From Chitinophagaceae bacterium (GTDB lineage: Bacteria; Bacteroidota; Bacteroidia; Chitinophagales; Chitinophagaceae), in the NCBI GenBank assembly GCA_004173235.1, contig SEAC01000020.1:210678-274677 (forward strand): a stretch of DNA of 64,000 nucleotides, written 5' to 3'. Below are positions 13,863-48,752 of the stretch, piece after piece. The position numbers were made by a program, and so were the translations under genes. The stretch's first letter is position 1, and each line of letters starts with the position of its first letter. The notes beneath the pieces were generated by a model, which was given only the letters and a program-made list of their open reading frames with translations, was not told the origin of the DNA and searched no databases.

Positions 13863-14030
13863 AAGAGGGTTGAGAGAAAGAGAACGAGAGAACATGAGAA
13901 CATGAGAACATGAGGACATGAGAACATGAGAACATGAGAACATGAGGAGGTGAGGACATGAGGAAGTGAGAACATGAGAAATGATAATCGGCCACCGATA
14001 GACCAATAAACTAATAGACCAATAAACACA
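13863..14030. repeat. Decamer array GAGAACAT plus AATAAACC array between mraY and murD
   Basis: From about 13870 to 13985 the decamer GAGAACATGA is repeated roughly ten times with substitutions (GAGGACATGA, GAGGAGGTGA). ACCAATAAACTAATAGACC follows at about 13999-14030. Copies touch without spacers, so this is not a CRISPR array. A remnant of the same decamer occurs near 36150. Confidence 0.85.
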
Positions 14031-31439: not shown

Positions 31440-31556
31440 CGAAAGTTTGAAGAGGGGGTTTTGAGAGGGGGCGAAAAAGGCGTGGGAAGGGTTTTGAAAA
31501 AGGGTTTTGAGAGGTTTTGAGGGGTTTTGAAAAGGTTTTGAGCGGTTGAGAAGCTT
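31440..31556. repeat. GGTTTTGA degenerate array
   Basis: GGTTTTGA is repeated about seven times, separated by a few A or G, in the upstream region of the M16 operon. It is the same stutter type as other gaps but in a single orientation. Confidence 0.7.
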
Positions 31557-31618: not shown

Positions 31619-32269
31619 TCATCGTTGATGGGACCAATGATAGATGTTGCTGAATGCCCCGAGGATGGCGCGGCCGTTTGCGAAGCGCAGTCGGTCAAGG
31701 CGAAGGTCGTCGATGTCGCGCTGGCGCACGCGGCGGTGCATCGGATGCATGGTGCCGCCGGTGACGCCCGCGGGCTTTGCGGAATCGTATTGGAACTGCG
31801 GATCTACGAGTGTGCCGCGCGCGCACATGATGCCGGGCGTGCCGCGTCCGCGCCAATCCATATCCTGCGGATGGTCGAGGCCAAGCGTGTGGCCGAACTC
31901 GTGGGCTGCCGTGGTGGAGCCAGGGTAAAGGTTTTCGAGGAAGAAGTAACCCGTGTTGCAACCGAGGCCATCTACGAACGAAATGTTGATCTCGGAATAG
32001 TCTTCGATGCGGAAGAAGTTGGCGCGCGGGTCGGTGTTGGAAAGCACACTGTATTCATCGAGGCCTGGATTGCATTCAGCGCTGATCGCGAAGCGTACCG
32101 TAGTTCTACGGCCACCGATGACCGCTATGCCGCGTGGTTCGTTCCAGAGGTCTTCGGTTTCGGCGCGGAGCTGCTCCGCGAGGGCGGGGGTAGCAAAGTT
32201 TCCGTAGAAGACGAAGTGCGCGTGGATCATTAGCTCGTTACGATCGGGTAGGAGTTCGGCTTCGCCCAT
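31619..32269 (-). CDS. Metzincin-type zinc metalloprotease
   Basis: 216 residues. Zinc-binding HEFGHTLGLDH at 123-133 (His123, His127, His133, catalytic Glu124) and a likely Met-turn at Met148 (GIMCA) define a metzincin close to the matrixin/M10 type. No signal peptide is apparent at this start. A second ATG at codon 14 is also possible. A stretch of 149 bp (31929-32077, residues ~65-114) is almost identical to a fragment at 34057-34205. The gene ends an accessory region; the upstream gap holds a 21-bp repeat array. Confidence 0.8.
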   Translation of the reverse strand: MGEAELLPDRNELMIHAHFVFYGNFATPALAEQLRAETEDLWNEPRGIAVIGGRRTTVRFAISAECNPGLDEYSVLSNTDPRANFFRIEDYSEINISFVDGLGCNTGYFFLENLYPGSTTAAHEFGHTLGLDHPQDMDWRGRGTPGIMCARGTLVDPQFQYDSAKPAGVTGGTMHPMHRRVRQRDIDDLRLDRLRFANGRAILGAFSNIYHWSHQR

Positions 32270-32327
32270 GGGTCAAAGGTCCGGGTATGCGTGATTTTTC
32301 GGGCAGGTTAGGGCGGGAAGTACTCCG

Positions 32328-32610
32328 AATTGCTCAAAATCCCCCGAATCTTTATCAGGGCGAAACCTATCTCTATCAGAAGCATAGGTATTTTTATCAG
32401 AATAAGGAAGAACGTTATCAATATTGCTGATTTTTTGTTCGGGATTTGGATTATCTTATTCAGGTAGCCCTCGAATACTTTCAGAATCACGTATATTTAT
32501 TTCAGAATAGCGAGTAACTTATTCAGATGTACCACAATTCTTGTCAATAGGGGCGGTATCTTAATCAGTTGAAGCAGTATCATTCGCAAAACGTGGGTGT
32601 GGTGTTTCGG
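32328..32610. repeat. Array of about 13 repeats phased at exactly 21 bp
   Basis: The 375-bp gap between the metzincin and Fic genes (32270-32644) is AT-rich compared with its surroundings. It carries the hexamer TATCAG and variants (TTTCAG, ATTCAG, TATCAA, TTTCGG) starting at 32353, 32374, 32395, 32416, 32437 (weak), 32458, 32479, 32500, 32521, 32542, 32563 and 32605, that is, always at multiples of 21 bases; 32332 and 32584 are degenerate. The wider consensus is TnTTATCAGAA then about ten free bases, often ending in GTA. Read in either direction it gives heptad-like peptides, but stops interrupt the plus frame. 21 bp is two helical turns, so all copies face the same side of the DNA. Confidence 0.85.
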
Positions 32611-32644
32611 TAGAACGCGTCCTTGCTTCTTCAGAAGTGTTTTT

Positions 32645-33991
32645 ATGGCAAAACGGGCAGAGAAAATAGCACAGCAACTGATACAGGTGCGGGAAGTACT
32701 TTCTGGTTACCCCGATGGATTACCTTTCGAAGAGCTTGCCAAAGCGGTGGCCATGAGCGCCATGACCCTCCGCCGTCGCCTTCCCATGTGGGAAGAACAG
32801 GGGATTATCCGGAAAACGGCTGTCACCCGGGGCAATCGATACGCGGTGGTGGAGCCAACGGAACGTGGCCGGGCCGGGCAGGAAACAGTGCCTCTATCGG
32901 AAGCGGGCCGGGCCATTACCGCTCTTGTGGACCAACCAGAAGCGCTGCGCCAGCCAGTTGGCTACAACTTCCAGTTTTTAGGAGGCTACGAGCCCAATCG
33001 CTCTGCTTACCTAACGGCGGAAGAGCGGGCGCAACTCCGGTCAGTTGGCGCAACACCCGCAGCGGAACAGCCGGCAGGCACTTACGCCCGCCAGGTGCTC
33101 CACCGCCTGCTGATCGACCTATCGTACAACTCCAGCCGCCTCGAAGGAAATACCTATAGTTTGCTCGATACGCAACGTCTGTTGCAGGCAGGGGTAGCAG
33201 CTACCGGAAAGGCCGCGGAAGAAGCCCAGATGATCCTCAACCATAAAGAGGCGATCGAATTTTTGCTGGAAGCGCCAGCAGAGATTGGCGTCAACCGCTA
33301 TACTTTGCTCAGTATCCATGCTTTGCTATCCGATAACCTCTTAGCCGATTCGGCGGCATCGGGCCGCCTGCGCCAGCAACTGGTAGGCATTAGCGGCTCG
33401 GTGTATACGCCGCCGGGCATTCCGCAGCAGATCGAAGAATATTTCGAATTACTTCTGGCGAAAGCAGCAGCTATCGAAGACCCATTCGAGCAGGCCTTTT
33501 TTCTGATGGTGCAATTGCCCTACCTGCAGCCATTCGATGACGTGAACAAGCGTGTTTCGCGACTCGCTGCCAACATTCCCTTGAACCGGCACAACCTGGT
33601 GCCGCTGGCCTTTGTAGATGTTCCGCAGGACGTGTACGTGCAAGGTCTGCTCGGCATTTACGAATTGAACCGCGTGGAGCTGCTGAAGGATGTTTTTTTG
33701 TTTGCCTACGAACGGTCAGCCGCCCGCTATTCAGTGATCCGCCAAACGATCGGCGACCCCGATCCGTTCCGGATGCAATACCGCGAGCAGTTGCGTGGAA
33801 TAATACGGGAAGTAGTGCTCAAGGGAACCGCGCTGGCTGCGGCCATCGCGAAGTCGGGCGTACCCCAGGCCGATCTTACCCGCCTGCGTCAGGTGGTGGA
33901 GTCGGAGCTGGAAAGCCTGCACGAAGGGAATATTGCGCGGTATCGGATTACACCGGGGCAGTTTGCGAAGTGGGCTAACGGCCGCCCTTGA
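32645..33991 (+). CDS. Fic family protein with N-terminal winged helix and altered active site
   Basis: 448 residues from ATG 32645. Residues ~8-70 form a winged helix (GLPFEELAKAVAMSAMTLRR, GIIRKTAVTRGNRYAVVE). A central Fic domain follows, with the inhibitory helix motif [S/T]xxxE[G/N] at Ser163-Gly168 (SSRLEG). The Fic loop reads QPFDDVNKRVSRL at about 295-307, where the consensus is HxFx[D/E]GNGRxxR: the catalytic His is Gln295 and the two glycines are Val300 and Lys302. AMP transfer is therefore doubtful; a regulatory or different transferase role is possible. The C-terminal about 80 residues are helical. An earlier start at 32597 would lie inside the repeat array region. No antitoxin gene is adjacent. 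Confidence 0.85.
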   Translation: MAKRAEKIAQQLIQVREVLSGYPDGLPFEELAKAVAMSAMTLRRRLPMWEEQGIIRKTAVTRGNRYAVVEPTERGRAGQETVPLSEAGRAITALVDQPEALRQPVGYNFQFLGGYEPNRSAYLTAEERAQLRSVGATPAAEQPAGTYARQVLHRLLIDLSYNSSRLEGNTYSLLDTQRLLQAGVAATGKAAEEAQMILNHKEAIEFLLEAPAEIGVNRYTLLSIHALLSDNLLADSAASGRLRQQLVGISGSVYTPPGIPQQIEEYFELLLAKAAAIEDPFEQAFFLMVQLPYLQPFDDVNKRVSRLAANIPLNRHNLVPLAFVDVPQDVYVQGLLGIYELNRVELLKDVFLFAYERSAARYSVIRQTIGDPDPFRMQYREQLRGIIREVVLKGTALAAAIAKSGVPQADLTRLRQVVESELESLHEGNIARYRITPGQFAKWANGRP

Positions 33992-34015
33992 TGGATTTAT
34001 CCATCTGCTTTCTCC

Positions 34016-34042
34016 CTACTCAAACCGCATCGAATACAACAG
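34016..34042 (-). pseudogene. Remnant of a second nucleotide-cyclase C-terminus
   Basis: On the minus strand this reads LLYSMRFE and stop. The intact cyclase gene ends KLYSMRFE and stop. CTCAAACCGCATCGAATACA at 34019-34038 matches the intact end (35005-35024) with one mismatch. Nothing else of a second cyclase is visible. Confidence 0.6.
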
Positions 34043-34260
34043 TGGATCCAGCATACAGGTTTTCGAGGAGGAAGTAACCCGTGTTGCAACCGAGGACATC
34101 TACGAACGAAATGTTGATCTCGGAATAGTCTTCGATGCGGAAGAAGTTGGCGCGCGGGTCGGTGTTGGAAAGCACACTGTATTCATCGAGGCCTGGATTG
34201 CATTCTCCCGGATTAATTCCACTTCGCCCATAGCACCGGAGTTCGGCAATTACGGTTCTA
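34037..34260 (-). pseudogene. Fragment of a second metzincin gene
   Basis: The minus strand encodes, in one frame and without an own start, RTVIAELRCYGRSGINPG, then ECNPGLDEYSVLSNTDPRAN, then FFRIEDYSEINISFVDVLGC, then NTGYFLLENLYAGST, then a stop after a few unrelated codons. It matches residues ~57-119 of the metzincin at 31619-32269. 147 of 149 bases (34057-34205) are identical, while sequence on both sides is diverged. The zinc-binding part is lost: it is joined directly to the cyclase-tail remnant. It begins at the stop codon of the GNAT gene. Confidence 0.75.
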
Positions 34261-34788
34261 ATTTACATTCACGTTCACAAGTCGGAAATGCAGGAGCTCG
34301 TCGTCCGCCTCAGCCTCTAGCTGGAAGTGCAACTCCTGGAGCAGTTTCGATGAACGATCGTTTTGCGCATGCGTGTAGGCATGCAGCTCGCGCAGGCCGA
34401 GCGCCTGGATGCCAAACGCGATCACGCTGCCGAGCGCTTCGCGCATGAAGCCTTTGCCCTGGTTGTGAGGAAGCAGCTCGTAGCCGATCTCCGCACCCGA
34501 TCCGTCTTCCGCGAATTGGAACAGGCCTATCGTTCCAATCATCTGCCCCGTTTCTTTGCAATCGATGGCCCAATAGTACGTCTCCCTGGTGCGTGTGTTG
34601 GCCTGGATCATTTCGATAAAGGCCTGTGCGTCTTCGATCCTTTCGGCAGGCTTCCGTCCGAGGTACCTGTTTACTTCGGCATTAGAGCGCAGCGCAAAGA
34701 TGACGGCATCGTCGTGGCTGGCGAGGGGCCGCAACAGTAAGCGATCCGTAGCGAGGAGCGGCTGCGAAGCTTGTTCGTTGGGTGACAT
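34258..34788 (-). CDS. GNAT family N-acetyltransferase (RimJ/RimL-like)
   Basis: 176 residues from ATG 34788. ATDRLLLRPLASHDDAVIFAL is the typical opening of this subfamily. The acetyl-CoA loop is LPHNQGKGFMREALGSVIAFG (Q/RxxGxG/A), followed by LHAYTHAQNDRSSKLLQELHF, where Asn and Ser contact the substrate side. The acceptor is unknown. The start is preferred over an upstream one 27 codons earlier because ATDRL blocks usually lie 10-20 residues from the N-terminus. A metzincin fragment abuts its stop. Confidence 0.85.
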   Translation of the reverse strand: MSPNEQASQPLLATDRLLLRPLASHDDAVIFALRSNAEVNRYLGRKPAERIEDAQAFIEMIQANTRTRETYYWAIDCKETGQMIGTIGLFQFAEDGSGAEIGYELLPHNQGKGFMREALGSVIAFGIQALGLRELHAYTHAQNDRSSKLLQELHFQLEAEADDELLHFRLVNVNVN

Positions 34789-35001
34789 AAATCGTGTTAT
34801 AGTAGTTGGAGCAGGGGTGCAGTTCAAACTTACTGGATTCTGTGCGTGTGATGGAGAAAGCGGGATCAAGTATTGGATGGATTATAAAGAGGGAGACATT
34901 GAGCTGGGCTAAAAGGGTAGTTTCCTGGCATATCGTACCAGCTATGTTAAAGCCGGTCAGTTGAACGCGTTGCAGATGCTGGCAGCAGGGAAAGGCGCCA
35001 A

Positions 35002-36066
35002 TCACTCAAAACGCATCGAATACAATTTCACCCATTCCACTTTTCCTTTCAGCTCAATCCTGCCGATGGCTTTGATCCGGTAGCCGTGGGGCTTCTCGAA
35101 GTCGCTCATGAAAGCGCCCGAGAGCACGAAGCTTTCGTTCACGTCGTGGCACACCGAGCGGATGCGTGCCGTGGTATTCACCGTGTCGCCGGTATAGAGC
35201 ATGTCTTTCTTTACTACCCCTACGAAGCCTGCGGTTACCTCGCCGGCATGCACGCCCGCTTTGAAGCGCGGGATGTAGCCGAACTGCTTCTCGTATTCTG
35301 CCGCCTTGCGTTCCATCAGAAAGTAGGCATAGCGGAGAAAGCGGAGCGCGTTGAGCTTGTTCTCGGGCGTGTTGGCCCAGCTGAGCACCACCTCGTCTCC
35401 CACATACTGGTAGATCTCGCCCTCCGAGGCCAGCACGGGCATCGTGATCTCGGCAAAAAAGCGCCGGAGCATGAGGAAGTACCGTTCGTGGCCCAGCGTT
35501 TCGGCAATAGAGGTAGCCTCGTTGATGTCGAGGAAGATGAAGATGCGGTTCTGAACCACAGGCTTGTTGTATTCCCCGCTGATCATCGCCCAGAACATGC
35601 CCGGGCCGTATTTGTCTTTCACCTCCAGCATCGCTATCGACATCACGGTCATGATGGCCATATCGATGATGAAGATGCCGAAGGTGCGCGTGTGCATGAT
35701 CTTTGTAAAGAACGAATCGAGAAAGTGCCCGAAGTGGAAACTCTTTTTATACAGGAACACGTAGTAGAGCAGCAGCAGCAGGAAGGCGATCACAAAAAAG
35801 ATGACCACCGTGATGAGCAGCTTGTATAGCGATGCCCGCCACACGGGAAGGTGACTGAAGGCTGGCTTGAGGTAGAAGATGATGATGCCGGTGACGATGA
35901 ACCCAATGAGGCCGAAAACGATGCTGAACTGGTACAACGCCACGCGCACGCCCAGGTCGTTGCAGGCACGGATGAGGTTTTCGAAAAAGACCACTCCAAA
36001 AACGACCCAGATCAGTGAGATCAGGACCAGCGAGCGGAGATGGAGGTACAAGAGGCGACGGGGCAT
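35002..36066 (-). CDS. Membrane-bound class III adenylate/guanylate cyclase
   Basis: 354 residues from ATG 36066; an earlier TTG is less likely. Four to five hydrophobic segments in residues 10-160 form a membrane part. The class III catalytic domain follows, with IFLDINEATSIAETLG (first metal Asp), GEIYQYVGDEVVLSWA (second metal Asp), FKAGVHAGEVTAGFVG and GDTVNTTARI (transition-state Asn and Arg). The key catalytic positions appear present, so cyclic nucleotide synthesis is likely; cAMP versus cGMP cannot be told with confidence. A copy of its last eight codons lies at 34016-34042. Confidence 0.87.
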   Translation of the reverse strand: MPRRLLYLHLRSLVLISLIWVVFGVVFFENLIRACNDLGVRVALYQFSIVFGLIGFIVTGIIIFYLKPAFSHLPVWRASLYKLLITVVIFFVIAFLLLLLYYVFLYKKSFHFGHFLDSFFTKIMHTRTFGIFIIDMAIMTVMSIAMLEVKDKYGPGMFWAMISGEYNKPVVQNRIFIFLDINEATSIAETLGHERYFLMLRRFFAEITMPVLASEGEIYQYVGDEVVLSWANTPENKLNALRFLRYAYFLMERKAAEYEKQFGYIPRFKAGVHAGEVTAGFVGVVKKDMLYTGDTVNTTARIRSVCHDVNESFVLSGAFMSDFEKPHGYRIKAIGRIELKGKVEWVKLYSMRFE

Positions 36067-36131
36067 ATGGGGCTGCCCATGCAAAAGGTGTGCAAGGGGA
36101 GGGGGGAGGGATTATTGAGGAGGGAAGAGGG

Positions 36132-36240
36132 GGAGTACTTGATTAATTGAGTACATGAGAACATGAGGGCAGAGTTGGTGCATCCCGGGCGGCACCACCC
36201 TCTTGAAATCGAGTAATCATGTATTCAAGTAATCAAGTAT
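36132..36240. repeat. Inverted pair of TACTTGATTAATTGAG-type repeats
   Basis: AGTACTTGATTAATTGAGTA on the left arm and AATCATGTATTCAAGTAATC on the right arm are imperfect inverse complements. A GAGAACATGAGG remnant of the decamer at 13863 lies in between. It fills the gap before the cyclase gene. Confidence 0.6.
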
Positions 36241-36241
36241 T

Positions 36242-38617
36242 CTAATTCCTCACCGGCTTTCCATTCTTCAATACCCCCTGTATCCGTTCGAGCGTTTTCC
36301 GCTCGCCGCACAGGCTGAGGAAGGCTTCGCGCTCGAGGTCAAGCAGGTATTGTTCCGATACGAGGCTTTGCTCGGAGAGGTCGCCGCCGCACATCACGAA
36401 GGCCAGCTTGCGGGCAACGAGGGCGTCGTGGGCCGTGGCGTAGCCCGCGCTTTCCATTCCATGGATGCCGGCGTACAAGGAGCCGAGCGCCGAGCGGCCC
36501 AGAACGCGCACGTCGGTGCGGGGAACGGGTTGCACATAGCCGGCGTCGAACATTTCGGCTACCGACTGCCGGGCAACCGCCACGCGCCGCCCCTGGTTCA
36601 GCACAACCTCATCCAGTCCCTTGCGGTACACACCCAGGTTGAAGCCTTCGAATGCAGACGTGGCGACCTTGGCCGTGGCGATGCTGAGGAAGCGGTTCTT
36701 AAGCGTAATGGTTTCGGGCTCGTCCTCGTGCATCTCGTCGGAAGCGCGGAGGGCAAACTCCTTGGTGCCACCGCCCCCGGGGATCAGGCCTACGCCCAGT
36801 TCAACGAGGCCCGTGTAGGTCTCGGCTGCAGGGCAGCACTTGTCGGCATGCAGGCTCATTTCGCAGGCACCGCCCAGGGCGAGGCCGTGCGGCGCAACTA
36901 CTACCGGCACCGACGAATAGCGCACGCGCATCATCGTGTTCTGGAAGAGGCGGATGGCGAAGTCGAGCTCGTCGTATTCCTGCTCGATGGCCAGCATGAA
37001 GATCATCCCCACGTTGGCCCCCGCCGAAAAGTTCGGGCCTTCATTGGCGATCACCAGTCCTTTGTAATTCTTCTCAGCCAGCTCGATCGCCTTGTTGATG
37101 CCCGCCAGCACGTCGCCGCCGATGGAGTTCATCTTGGAGCTCCACTGGAGGCCAAGCACGCCTTCGCCGATGTCGTGCACCTGGCAGGCGCTGTTCTTCC
37201 ACACCTGCGGGTTGTGTTGCAGCACGATGAAGTCGCCACCACCGGGTATGTCCTTATAGGTTTTGGTAGCCGGGTCGTACGACTGGCGCCGCCCGTTTTC
37301 CACTTTGTAAAAAGTTTTGTTGCCAGCGGCCAGCATTTCGTCCACCCAGGGCGCAACGGCATATCCTGCTTCTTTCATCTTGGCTACACTGCGCTCCACG
37401 CCGAGCGTATCCCAGCTTTCAAAGGCGCCGATCTCCCAGCCAAAGCCGGCCATCATGGCGTCGTCGATGCGAAACACTTCGTCGGAAATCTCGGGGATGC
37501 GGTGCGAGATGTAGGAGAAGAGTCCGTAGTGAAAATGACGGAGGAACTCGCCGGCCCTGTCGGGGGCGGCGGTCAGCATCTGGAGGCGTTGCCTGAGGTC
37601 TTCAACAGGCTTCGCCGCATCAACAGAGGCAAATTTCGGCTTCACGCGCGGGCCATACTCCAACGTTTTCAGATCAAGCGTCAGGATCTCCTTCTCGCCC
37701 CCGGCACCCTTTGTTTTCTTGAAAAATCCCTGGCCGGTCTTGTCGCCCAGCCAGTTGTTCTCCACTACTTTGTTCAACCACGAAGGGATCTGGAATACGT
37801 CGCGCTGTTCGTCCTGCGCGCAGTTGTCGAACACGCCTTTGGCCACCTTCACGAGCGTGTCGATGCCTACCACGTCGGCGGTGCGGAAGGTTGCGGATTT
37901 CGGTCGCCCGATGAGCGGCCCCGTGAGTGCATCCACCTCGTCGATGCTCATTCCCATTTTGTCGATGAGCCCGAAGATGGCCATCATGCCCCATACGCCG
38001 ATGCGGTTGGCGATGAAGGCGGGTGTGTCTTTCGCCAGCACCGTGGTTTTGCCGAGAAAGCGGTCGCCGTAATCCATGAGGAAGTCGACGATGGCGGGGT
38101 CGGTATCGGGTGTGGGTATGATCTCGAGGAGGCGCAGGTAGCGCGGCGGGTTAAAGAAGTGCGTACCGCAGAAGTGCTTGCGGAAATCTTCCGAGCGGCC
38201 CTGTGCCAGCATGCCGATGGGTATGCCGGATGTATTGGAAGTAACGAGCGTTCCGGGTTTGCGAAACTGCTCCACGCGCTCGTAAAGCGATTGCTTGATA
38301 TCGAGGCGCTCCACCACCACTTCGATCACCCAGTCGCACGACGCGATGTCCTTCAGGTCGTCGTCGAAGTTGCCGGTCGTGATCTTCTTCACCACGTCTT
38401 TTGTGTAGATGGGGGAAGGATTGCTTTTCACTGCGGCCGCCAGTGCGTCGTTGACGATCTTGTTGCGCGCGGCCTTGTTGTCGCTTTCCTTTGCTTCGGC
38501 AGGAACGATGTCCAGTAGAACTACGGGAAGCCCGATGCCTGCAAAGTGGCAGGCGATGCGGCTACCCATTACACCCGAACCGAGTACCGCTACTTTCTTT
38601 ATGATGCGCTTGTCCAT
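36242..38617 (-). CDS. 3-hydroxyacyl-CoA dehydrogenase / enoyl-CoA hydratase, fused (FadN-like)
   Basis: 791 residues. The N-terminal NAD-binding domain starts KVAVLGSGVMGSRIACHFAG and contains NTSGIPIG, GTHFFNPPRYLRLLEIIP and KDTPAFIANRIG, typical of 3-hydroxyacyl-CoA dehydrogenase. A C-terminal crotonase domain (about 480-720) has GLVIANEGPNFSAGANVGM (oxyanion hole) and GLVELGVGLIPGGGGTKEF. Domain order (dehydrogenase first) is that of Bacillus FadN rather than E. coli FadB. It performs two successive steps of fatty-acid beta-oxidation. No thiolase or acyl-CoA dehydrogenase gene is adjacent. Confidence 0.92.
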   Translation of the reverse strand: MDKRIIKKVAVLGSGVMGSRIACHFAGIGLPVVLLDIVPAEAKESDNKAARNKIVNDALAAAVKSNPSPIYTKDVVKKITTGNFDDDLKDIASCDWVIEVVVERLDIKQSLYERVEQFRKPGTLVTSNTSGIPIGMLAQGRSEDFRKHFCGTHFFNPPRYLRLLEIIPTPDTDPAIVDFLMDYGDRFLGKTTVLAKDTPAFIANRIGVWGMMAIFGLIDKMGMSIDEVDALTGPLIGRPKSATFRTADVVGIDTLVKVAKGVFDNCAQDEQRDVFQIPSWLNKVVENNWLGDKTGQGFFKKTKGAGGEKEILTLDLKTLEYGPRVKPKFASVDAAKPVEDLRQRLQMLTAAPDRAGEFLRHFHYGLFSYISHRIPEISDEVFRIDDAMMAGFGWEIGAFESWDTLGVERSVAKMKEAGYAVAPWVDEMLAAGNKTFYKVENGRRQSYDPATKTYKDIPGGGDFIVLQHNPQVWKNSACQVHDIGEGVLGLQWSSKMNSIGGDVLAGINKAIELAEKNYKGLVIANEGPNFSAGANVGMIFMLAIEQEYDELDFAIRLFQNTMMRVRYSSVPVVVAPHGLALGGACEMSLHADKCCPAAETYTGLVELGVGLIPGGGGTKEFALRASDEMHEDEPETITLKNRFLSIATAKVATSAFEGFNLGVYRKGLDEVVLNQGRRVAVARQSVAEMFDAGYVQPVPRTDVRVLGRSALGSLYAGIHGMESAGYATAHDALVARKLAFVMCGGDLSEQSLVSEQYLLDLEREAFLSLCGERKTLERIQGVLKNGKPVRN

Positions 38618-48628: not shown

Positions 48629-48752
48629 CAGTTTACAGTTTACAGTTTATAGTTTACAGTTTGTAGTTTATGGTTGATGGGTGGGTGGTACCTGTTGCGG
48701 AGCGCGCGCGTTGCGCAATCGAAAACCCGAAACTGTAAACTTCAAACTTAAA
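48629..48752. repeat. AGTTTAC array and its inverse before purQ
   Basis: AGTTTACAGTTTACAGTTTA at 48629-48648, continuing to 48668. About 60 bases later comes the inverse AAACTGTAAACTTCAAACTT (48730-48749). Another inverted stutter pair; it ends just upstream of the purQ promoter box. Confidence 0.75.

Follow-up and report, generated by a model that had tools for sequence, protein, structure and literature searches.

The 64,000-nucleotide stretch of DNA analysed here (the window) contains an array of short direct units in 21-bp phase ahead of a gene for a Fic protein, and this array is quite probably the autoregulatory operator region of that same gene. As judged from the sequences, the evidence for self-operators is good across the family of related Fic proteins, and the window array is given its place in this scheme on account of its position and its family. 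The array and the core-like copy that follows it are located as follows:

Positions 32332 to 32610, plus strand: phased array of about 11-13 direct units, defined from lag identity, phase count and column counts.
Positions 32629 to 32637, plus strand: extra core-like copy, CTTCAGAAG, shifted by 3 bases from the common phase and located 8-16 bases before the Fic ATG.

The periodicity was evaluated over 32339-32640 with 2000 dinucleotide-preserving shuffles of the same region as control. Identity at lag 21 was 0.434 (z 6.7) against a shuffle mean of 0.263, and at lag 42 it reached 0.469 (z 7.6); neither value was attained by any of the shuffles, for which the maximum at any lag from 5 to 60 was 0.380. 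Conversely, lags 7 and 14 fell below chance (z -2.2 and z -1.7, respectively), so that a 7-bp repeat was considered and rejected. Between 32330 and 32644, a single phase modulo 21 is common to 11 of the 12 TCA[G/A] words on the plus strand (32334 to 32565), the twelfth, at 32631, being displaced by 3 bases, and two such words occur on the minus strand. A preliminary description of this DNA had claimed an exact 21-bp phasing beside the Fic gene and proposed autocorrelation as the check, and both the peaks above all shuffles at lags 21 and 42 and the phase count confirm the claim. Of the units that it listed, two (32437 and 32605) are poor; no unit is recognisable at 32584, and an in-phase word is found already at 32334, ahead of its first unit at 32353.

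The core of the array reads [T/A][A/T]TCAG, with TATYTT ahead and often AA behind. Across 11 units the columns of TCAG hold T in 11, C in 11, A in 10 and G in 9, and an A five bases ahead of the core is present in 10; six of the 21 columns, five of them in the spacer, carry less than 0.1 bit when 12 units are counted. [A/T]TCAG is found nine times in 32330-32644, compared with 0.66 per 315 bases elsewhere in the window, and by the summed lag 21 and lag 42 score the array is the top place in the 64 kb (0.914; runner-up 0.742). Queried against the own genome, the array DNA gave a single match, and the exact two-unit pattern occurs there solely in the window's array. The tract was correctly described as AT-rich in G+C-rich surroundings, with 41% G+C in 32270-32644 against about 57% across the window. 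Shorter units are also arrayed elsewhere in the window, namely 8-bp GAGAACAT at 13880-13984, 10-bp GGTTTTGAGA at 31446-31547 and 7-bp CAGTTTA at 48629-48675.

In addition to a binding platform for the Fic winged helix, the preliminary description offered two readings of the array, as iterons for replication or recombination or as a decayed heptad-coding gene. Both would account for the regular spacing, 21 bp being equal to seven codons, and the frames that it reported are indeed present: a 60-residue frame on the minus strand (32308-32490), whose reading frame has one stop over 32339-32640, and a plus-strand frame with Gln at a fixed place and several stops, of which four were counted over the same interval. 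Still, at least one stop interrupts each of the six frames there, the four stops in the fixed-Gln frame count against a heptad gene, and no replication initiator or recombinase gene was found among the five neighbouring proteins scanned, leaving the iteron set without support. Moreover, the related arrays described below use both strands and mix steps of 10, 11, 20 and 21 bp. Either reading is thus hardly credible, and among the three the family evidence favours the binding platform.

The Fic gene and the elements of its product map as follows:

Positions 32645 to 33991, plus strand: Fic gene, 448 aa (Pfam Fic, E 1.8e-10; homologues).
Positions 32648 to 32848, plus strand: predicted winged helix, codons 2-68 (AlphaFold2 model).
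Positions 32759 to 32797, plus strand: predicted recognition helix AMTLRRRLPMWEE, codons 39-51 (alignment and AlphaFold2 model).
Positions 33131 to 33151, plus strand: inhibitory-helix-like SSRLEGN, residues 163-169 ([S/T]xxxE[G/N] pattern).
Positions 33527 to 33553, plus strand: QPFDDVNKR, the Fic motif (residues 295-303), in which Gln occupies the site of the catalytic His.

An AlphaFold2 model built from 40 sequences (mean pLDDT 80.1, pTM 0.65; pLDDT 75-91 over residues 1-70 in blocks of ten) predicts an N-terminal winged helix composed of helices 2-20, 28-34 and 39-51 and strands 55-60 and 63-68. The recognition helix carries M40 and R43, compared with the Arg and Gln usual in the family. 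The Fic domain, which places the protein in the Fic/Doc (Fido) family, follows the winged helix in the model, and FICD and further Fic proteins are its top matches in structure. The pattern [S/T]xxxE[G/N] lies N-terminal to the Fic core (S163-G168), as in class II Fic proteins, and SSRLEGN is invariant across the 40-sequence alignment. The catalytic motif HPFx[D/E]GN[G/K]R is replaced by QPFDDVNKR, and the residue at the position of the catalytic His is Gln in 89 and Arg in one of 90 homologues, the window not counted. The spread of the gene is sporadic: at E 1e-60 homologues were detected in 29 of 394 genomes of the bacterial family, the window's genome included, whereas the other 17 genomes of the genus had none; the nearest relative is 58% identical and no closer one was found among 298 further genomes of the order. 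Likewise, no conserved neighbour gene emerged from 203 ORFs around 52 loci, where the largest cluster covered three loci.

The upstream regions of the homologues provide the main evidence for self-operators. The best 80 of 373 relatives in named genomes were taken, and the 250 bp upstream were used for 79 of them, L083, with 2 bases upstream, being omitted. From the set of 90 homologues 19 duplicates and L140 (without the motif) had been dropped, and later counts on that set also omitted L083 and L141, the latter with the gene in two pieces. TTGTCGC occurred 95 times, in 45 of the 79 loci, against an expectation of 1.7 derived from the remainder of the same loci. A matrix trained on the 79 upstreams without any spacing rule, consisting of an A/T-rich part followed by TTGTCGCAATA, gave 390 sites in 65 of the loci, with at least three sites in 60 and a median of six in those. 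Once overlapping palindromic matches had been combined, 266 pairs of neighbours lay within 46 bp, and 260 of these pairs were in helical register (about 9-12, 18-23, 29-33 and 40-44 bp, ranges that make up 46% of the possible distances). Direct runs of fixed step were observed as well, for instance every 11 bp in L107 and every 10 bp in L093. The sites occur in both orientations, and this use of both strands argues for a protein on double-stranded DNA rather than for RNA.

A test blind to the motif led in the same direction, with repeats above all 60 shuffles in 32 of 89 Fic upstreams, the window included in the 89, and in one of 180 control upstreams drawn from 267; the window itself was equalled by 1 of its 60 shuffles and is therefore outside the 32. 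Motif finding de novo at single loci was too noisy for use. TAnnTTTG is a promoter element of Bacteroidota. It was present in the 120 bp upstream of 40 of 88 homologues, compared with 76 of 1958 control segments, and ran into an operator-like word in 29 of the 88, whereas it was absent from the 330 bp examined in the window. Inverted TTGTCGC..GCGACAA pairs were found as 12 distinct cases in 14 genomes, seven of them directly upstream of fic by coordinates, with no pair at all in eight of the genomes. The recurrence beside related Fic genes that the preliminary description had envisaged was thus borne out in part: the TATCAG version was absent from all 79 upstreams, but arrays of other motifs were found at most of them. 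The window motif was also considered as an in-register variant of the family operator, a candidate that was rejected, its match to the family matrix being no better than that of unrelated 21-bp arrays. Ten viral-classed contigs carry relatives of the Gln-Fic genes; by eye, L156, L157, L158 and L165 among these have repeated upstream sites of TGTCGC or GGCGCG type, and L163 and L164 have none.

The motif was further compared with the recognition helix at 88 loci, using TGTCG[C/T] as motif A and TTGCG[C/T] as motif B (background per 265 bp, 0.12 and 0.06, respectively). At 68 loci of QRRL type 253 A and 2 B sites were counted, and at 15 Q[YH]RL loci 2 A and 58 B sites. At least two strict A or B sites were present in 69 of the 88 loci, with fewer than two strict A sites in 14 of the 68 of QRRL type. 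The eight loci with H-type Fic genes (L009-L016) had two A or B sites altogether, a weak control, as other motifs are possible there. In a FastTree tree of the Fic part, read with support values left aside, the B loci form a single clade with L108 nested inside; consequently, the A/B contrast may represent one evolutionary change and is inflated by relatedness. More telling, at the level of sequence, are the scattered off-type helices. L075, L089, L108 and L138 have at most one A or B site and a repeated motif of their own, L091 has retained motif A, and the window, with M40 and R43, has neither A nor B sites. Motif change follows the recognition helix broadly but not strictly, the motif having changed at L038, L086 and L130 with the same helix core.

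As the binding of the arrays by Fic proteins is something that we infer, a host regulator other than Fic could be envisaged to bind at these promoters. Yet the motif tracks the Fic recognition helix and not the host given in the record title: the QRRL-type loci L068, L071, L076, L085 and L093, titled Proteobacteria, have motif A, and among the 15 Q[YH]RL loci, the majority likewise titled Proteobacteria, 14 have at least two B sites, although such titles may be wrong for binned genomes. The location of seven of the 12 distinct TTGTCGC..GCGACAA pairs directly upstream of fic speaks against a general host factor as well, and we consider this explanation very improbable.

Self-motifs were found also in a sister clade with the Fic motif Q[PA]FxDGNKR, assembled by searching 195 genomes of the bacterial family with part of L007 and adding L006-L008. 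Thirteen of 15 loci were counted, L148 being the same locus as L008 and L151 lacking its 5' end, and each of these 13, complete at the 5' end, carries a self-motif in 3-6 copies. The motif is TGAGCT at nine loci with the helix [YI]AT.KR, TGAGCG at L146 (IATLKR), GAGAGGAAA at L153 (VSTVNR) and TGATAGGA at L154 and L155 (IPT[IL]NR), the cores of four loci having been chosen by reading the sequences; L144 and L146 share the helix IATLKR and differ in motif. Tetrads with steps of 22, 19-20 and 22 bp are seen in L144, L145, L146, L149, L150 and L152.

The main rival to a Fic operator in the window, and a serious one, is that the array is one of the genome's 21-bp intergenic arrays, generated by some other process and situated beside the Fic gene by coincidence. 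In a sample of about 850 kb of the own genome (the window and forty 20-kb stretches, 800 kb), the summed lag 21 and lag 42 score was at least 0.80 at 13 places, the window's included, and five exceed the window. Seventeen strong arrays of period 13-45 were found, three with period 21 and four with period 42, and these seven include the window's array and a coding one in L199. Sharp-core and apparently noncoding 21-bp arrays are located at L219 5623-5938, L206 18041-18335 and L201 15432-15760; their motifs are, in that order, of CTTACAACGC type, CGTCCCGG/ATT and GAAC..TTC, and their neighbours are a Mrr-type endonuclease, Tex and an AcrB-type pump, not Fic. The array at L199 10955 encodes a coiled coil, and that at L208 1736 is a plain tandem repeat. 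The sharp-core noncoding arrays are possibly a class of their own, and the window array shares their 21-bp period, sharp core and noncoding character.

The coincidental reading draws further weight from the composition of the repeats in the genome and the bacterial family. (ACATCAG)n or CATCAG heptamer repeats occur at many places in the window's genome, and several genomes of the bacterial family have heptamer repeats with TATCAG. Three phased TATCAG words with at most two mismatches were matched in 290 of 394 genomes of the bacterial family, a search that says little, the matches listed being mostly scattered or heptamer repeats. Four places chosen from this list, in three genomes of other genera, are 21-bp or 42-bp arrays, some of TATCA type, and neither tblastn nor the motif revealed a Fic gene in the 6.6-8 kb around them. 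A 12-copy degenerate 21-bp array of TGATATCAG was observed in a genome of another genus (L189 2318-2630), where no Fic gene was found in 8 kb. The absence of a TATCAG version among the 79 homologue upstreams and the fact that the window motif resembles the family matrix no better than unrelated arrays do also speak against the Fic operator.

Against this, the window array lacks the 7-bp period of the heptamer repeats, and its sharp core with uninformative spacers is unlike the decay of a tandem repeat, though other arrays share that trait. More important is the position. Self-arrays lie at 69 of 88 relatives, and a chance landing exactly there is unlikely: by a rough extrapolation from the sampled rate the genome would have 15-25 arrays of this sort, the number of genes being taken as 3000. 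In combination, these observations make coincidence an unlikely, if serious, explanation of the window array.

Comparison with genomes of the same genus provides a further view of the locus, which involves two larger features:

Positions 32274 to 36241, no strand assigned: segment of about 4 kb with the array, Fic, a 164-bp protease fragment, and acetyltransferase and cyclase genes, unmatched at the corresponding place of two same-genus genomes.
Positions 31914 to 32077 and 34042 to 34205: 164-bp direct duplication of an inner part of a metalloprotease gene, flanking the array and Fic.

The protease start of G016 is separated by 602 bp from the match to window position 36653, a distance of 4.4 kb in the window, and in G009 it lies 117 bp from the match to 36242 (4.0 kb in the window). 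In G012 the match ends at 32273 and only the protease copy matches rightward, which makes this genome uninformative. The two protease copies are alike at 158 of 164 bases (96%). None of seven protease orthologues examined in the genus, out of 15 other genomes with the orthologue, has an array. Since the segment with the array and Fic is missing in two relatives, and the orthologues lack the array, the latter is not tied to the divergent protease gene but belongs to the acquired segment.

In the preferred reading of the window array as an operator of its own Fic gene, the N-terminal winged helix of the Fic protein would contact one TATCAG-type core per two helical turns, always from the same side of the DNA. 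Several Fic molecules would then sit side by side and keep the promoter shut, such that the protein limits its own expression, and the array motif would have diverged together with the window's unusual helix (M40, R43). Binding, cooperativity and repression by the Fic protein are what we infer here, and the Gln-Fic domain would presumably serve in pairing or in the sensing of a ligand and not in AMPylation. A more tentative extension, possible but on balance doubtful, is that the Gln-Fic clade as a whole consists of solitary autoregulators of transcription, with a one-time AMP-transferase fold that now serves for sensing or assembly, and that helix and array change together. Each protein would then form a cooperative row mainly at its own promoter, the co-change would keep horizontally moved copies from silencing each other, and the window would represent one switch, to TATCAG at strict 21-bp steps. 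The phased arrays ahead of most clade members examined, whose motifs are broadly in step with the recognition helix, give the Gln clade a directly testable role, autoregulation, and the homologue loci constitute natural pairs of protein and array that differ in specificity.

Open-licence PMC full text yielded no paper describing operator arrays for Fic genes of the Gln clade, and the string DVNKR retrieved no Fic paper there, as judged by titles. The clade itself appears to correspond to a known group: Khater and Mohanty (2015) described Fic/Doc clade D2, with the motif Qx[F|Y]x[D|E][G|V]NKR, 45 sequences and an open function (PMC4454073), and this motif is present in the window Fic. Clade D2 proteins are usually single-domain, whereas the window Fic has a predicted winged helix, but membership is still possible; the description of the clade mentions neither a winged helix nor operator arrays (PMC4454073). 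The 2009 Fido paper proposed a possible role in the control of fic expression for HTH domains in Fic fusions and named the winged-helix fusions duf977 and duf1612, with no operator sites or arrays mentioned in its account of these fusions (PMC2686095).

Closer functional parallels exist for the individual parts. CbFic2 of Coxiella burnetii is, like the window Fic, of class II, and its winged HTH binds DNA; unlike the window Fic, it retains the His and has the HTH at the C-terminus, and the assays reported used random DNA, their description making no mention of a cognate array (PMC10628234). Head-to-tail assembly of winged-helix proteins, at intervals of about one turn on direct repeats or over extended regions, is described for BldC (PMC5859096) and RdfS (PMC11963761), which differ from Fic in being small, in lacking a Fic domain and, according to these accounts, in having several targets or no consensus motif. 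The nearest counterpart is CccR of Yersinia pseudotuberculosis, an HTH-containing Fic protein that binds, as a dimer, to repeats in its own promoter and thereby represses it (PMC9755527). Its HTH is C-terminal, whereas the winged helix of the window Fic is predicted at the N-terminus; it has the catalytic His and is toxic by AMPylation, in contrast to the Gln of the window Fic; and its operator is reported as a single pair of inverted repeats, each of 10 bp and separated by 26 bp, compared with a multi-site phased array in the window (PMC9755527). Both have a short motif repeated at the own promoter, and CccR is a tested precedent for a Fic protein repressing its own gene via an HTH (PMC9755527).
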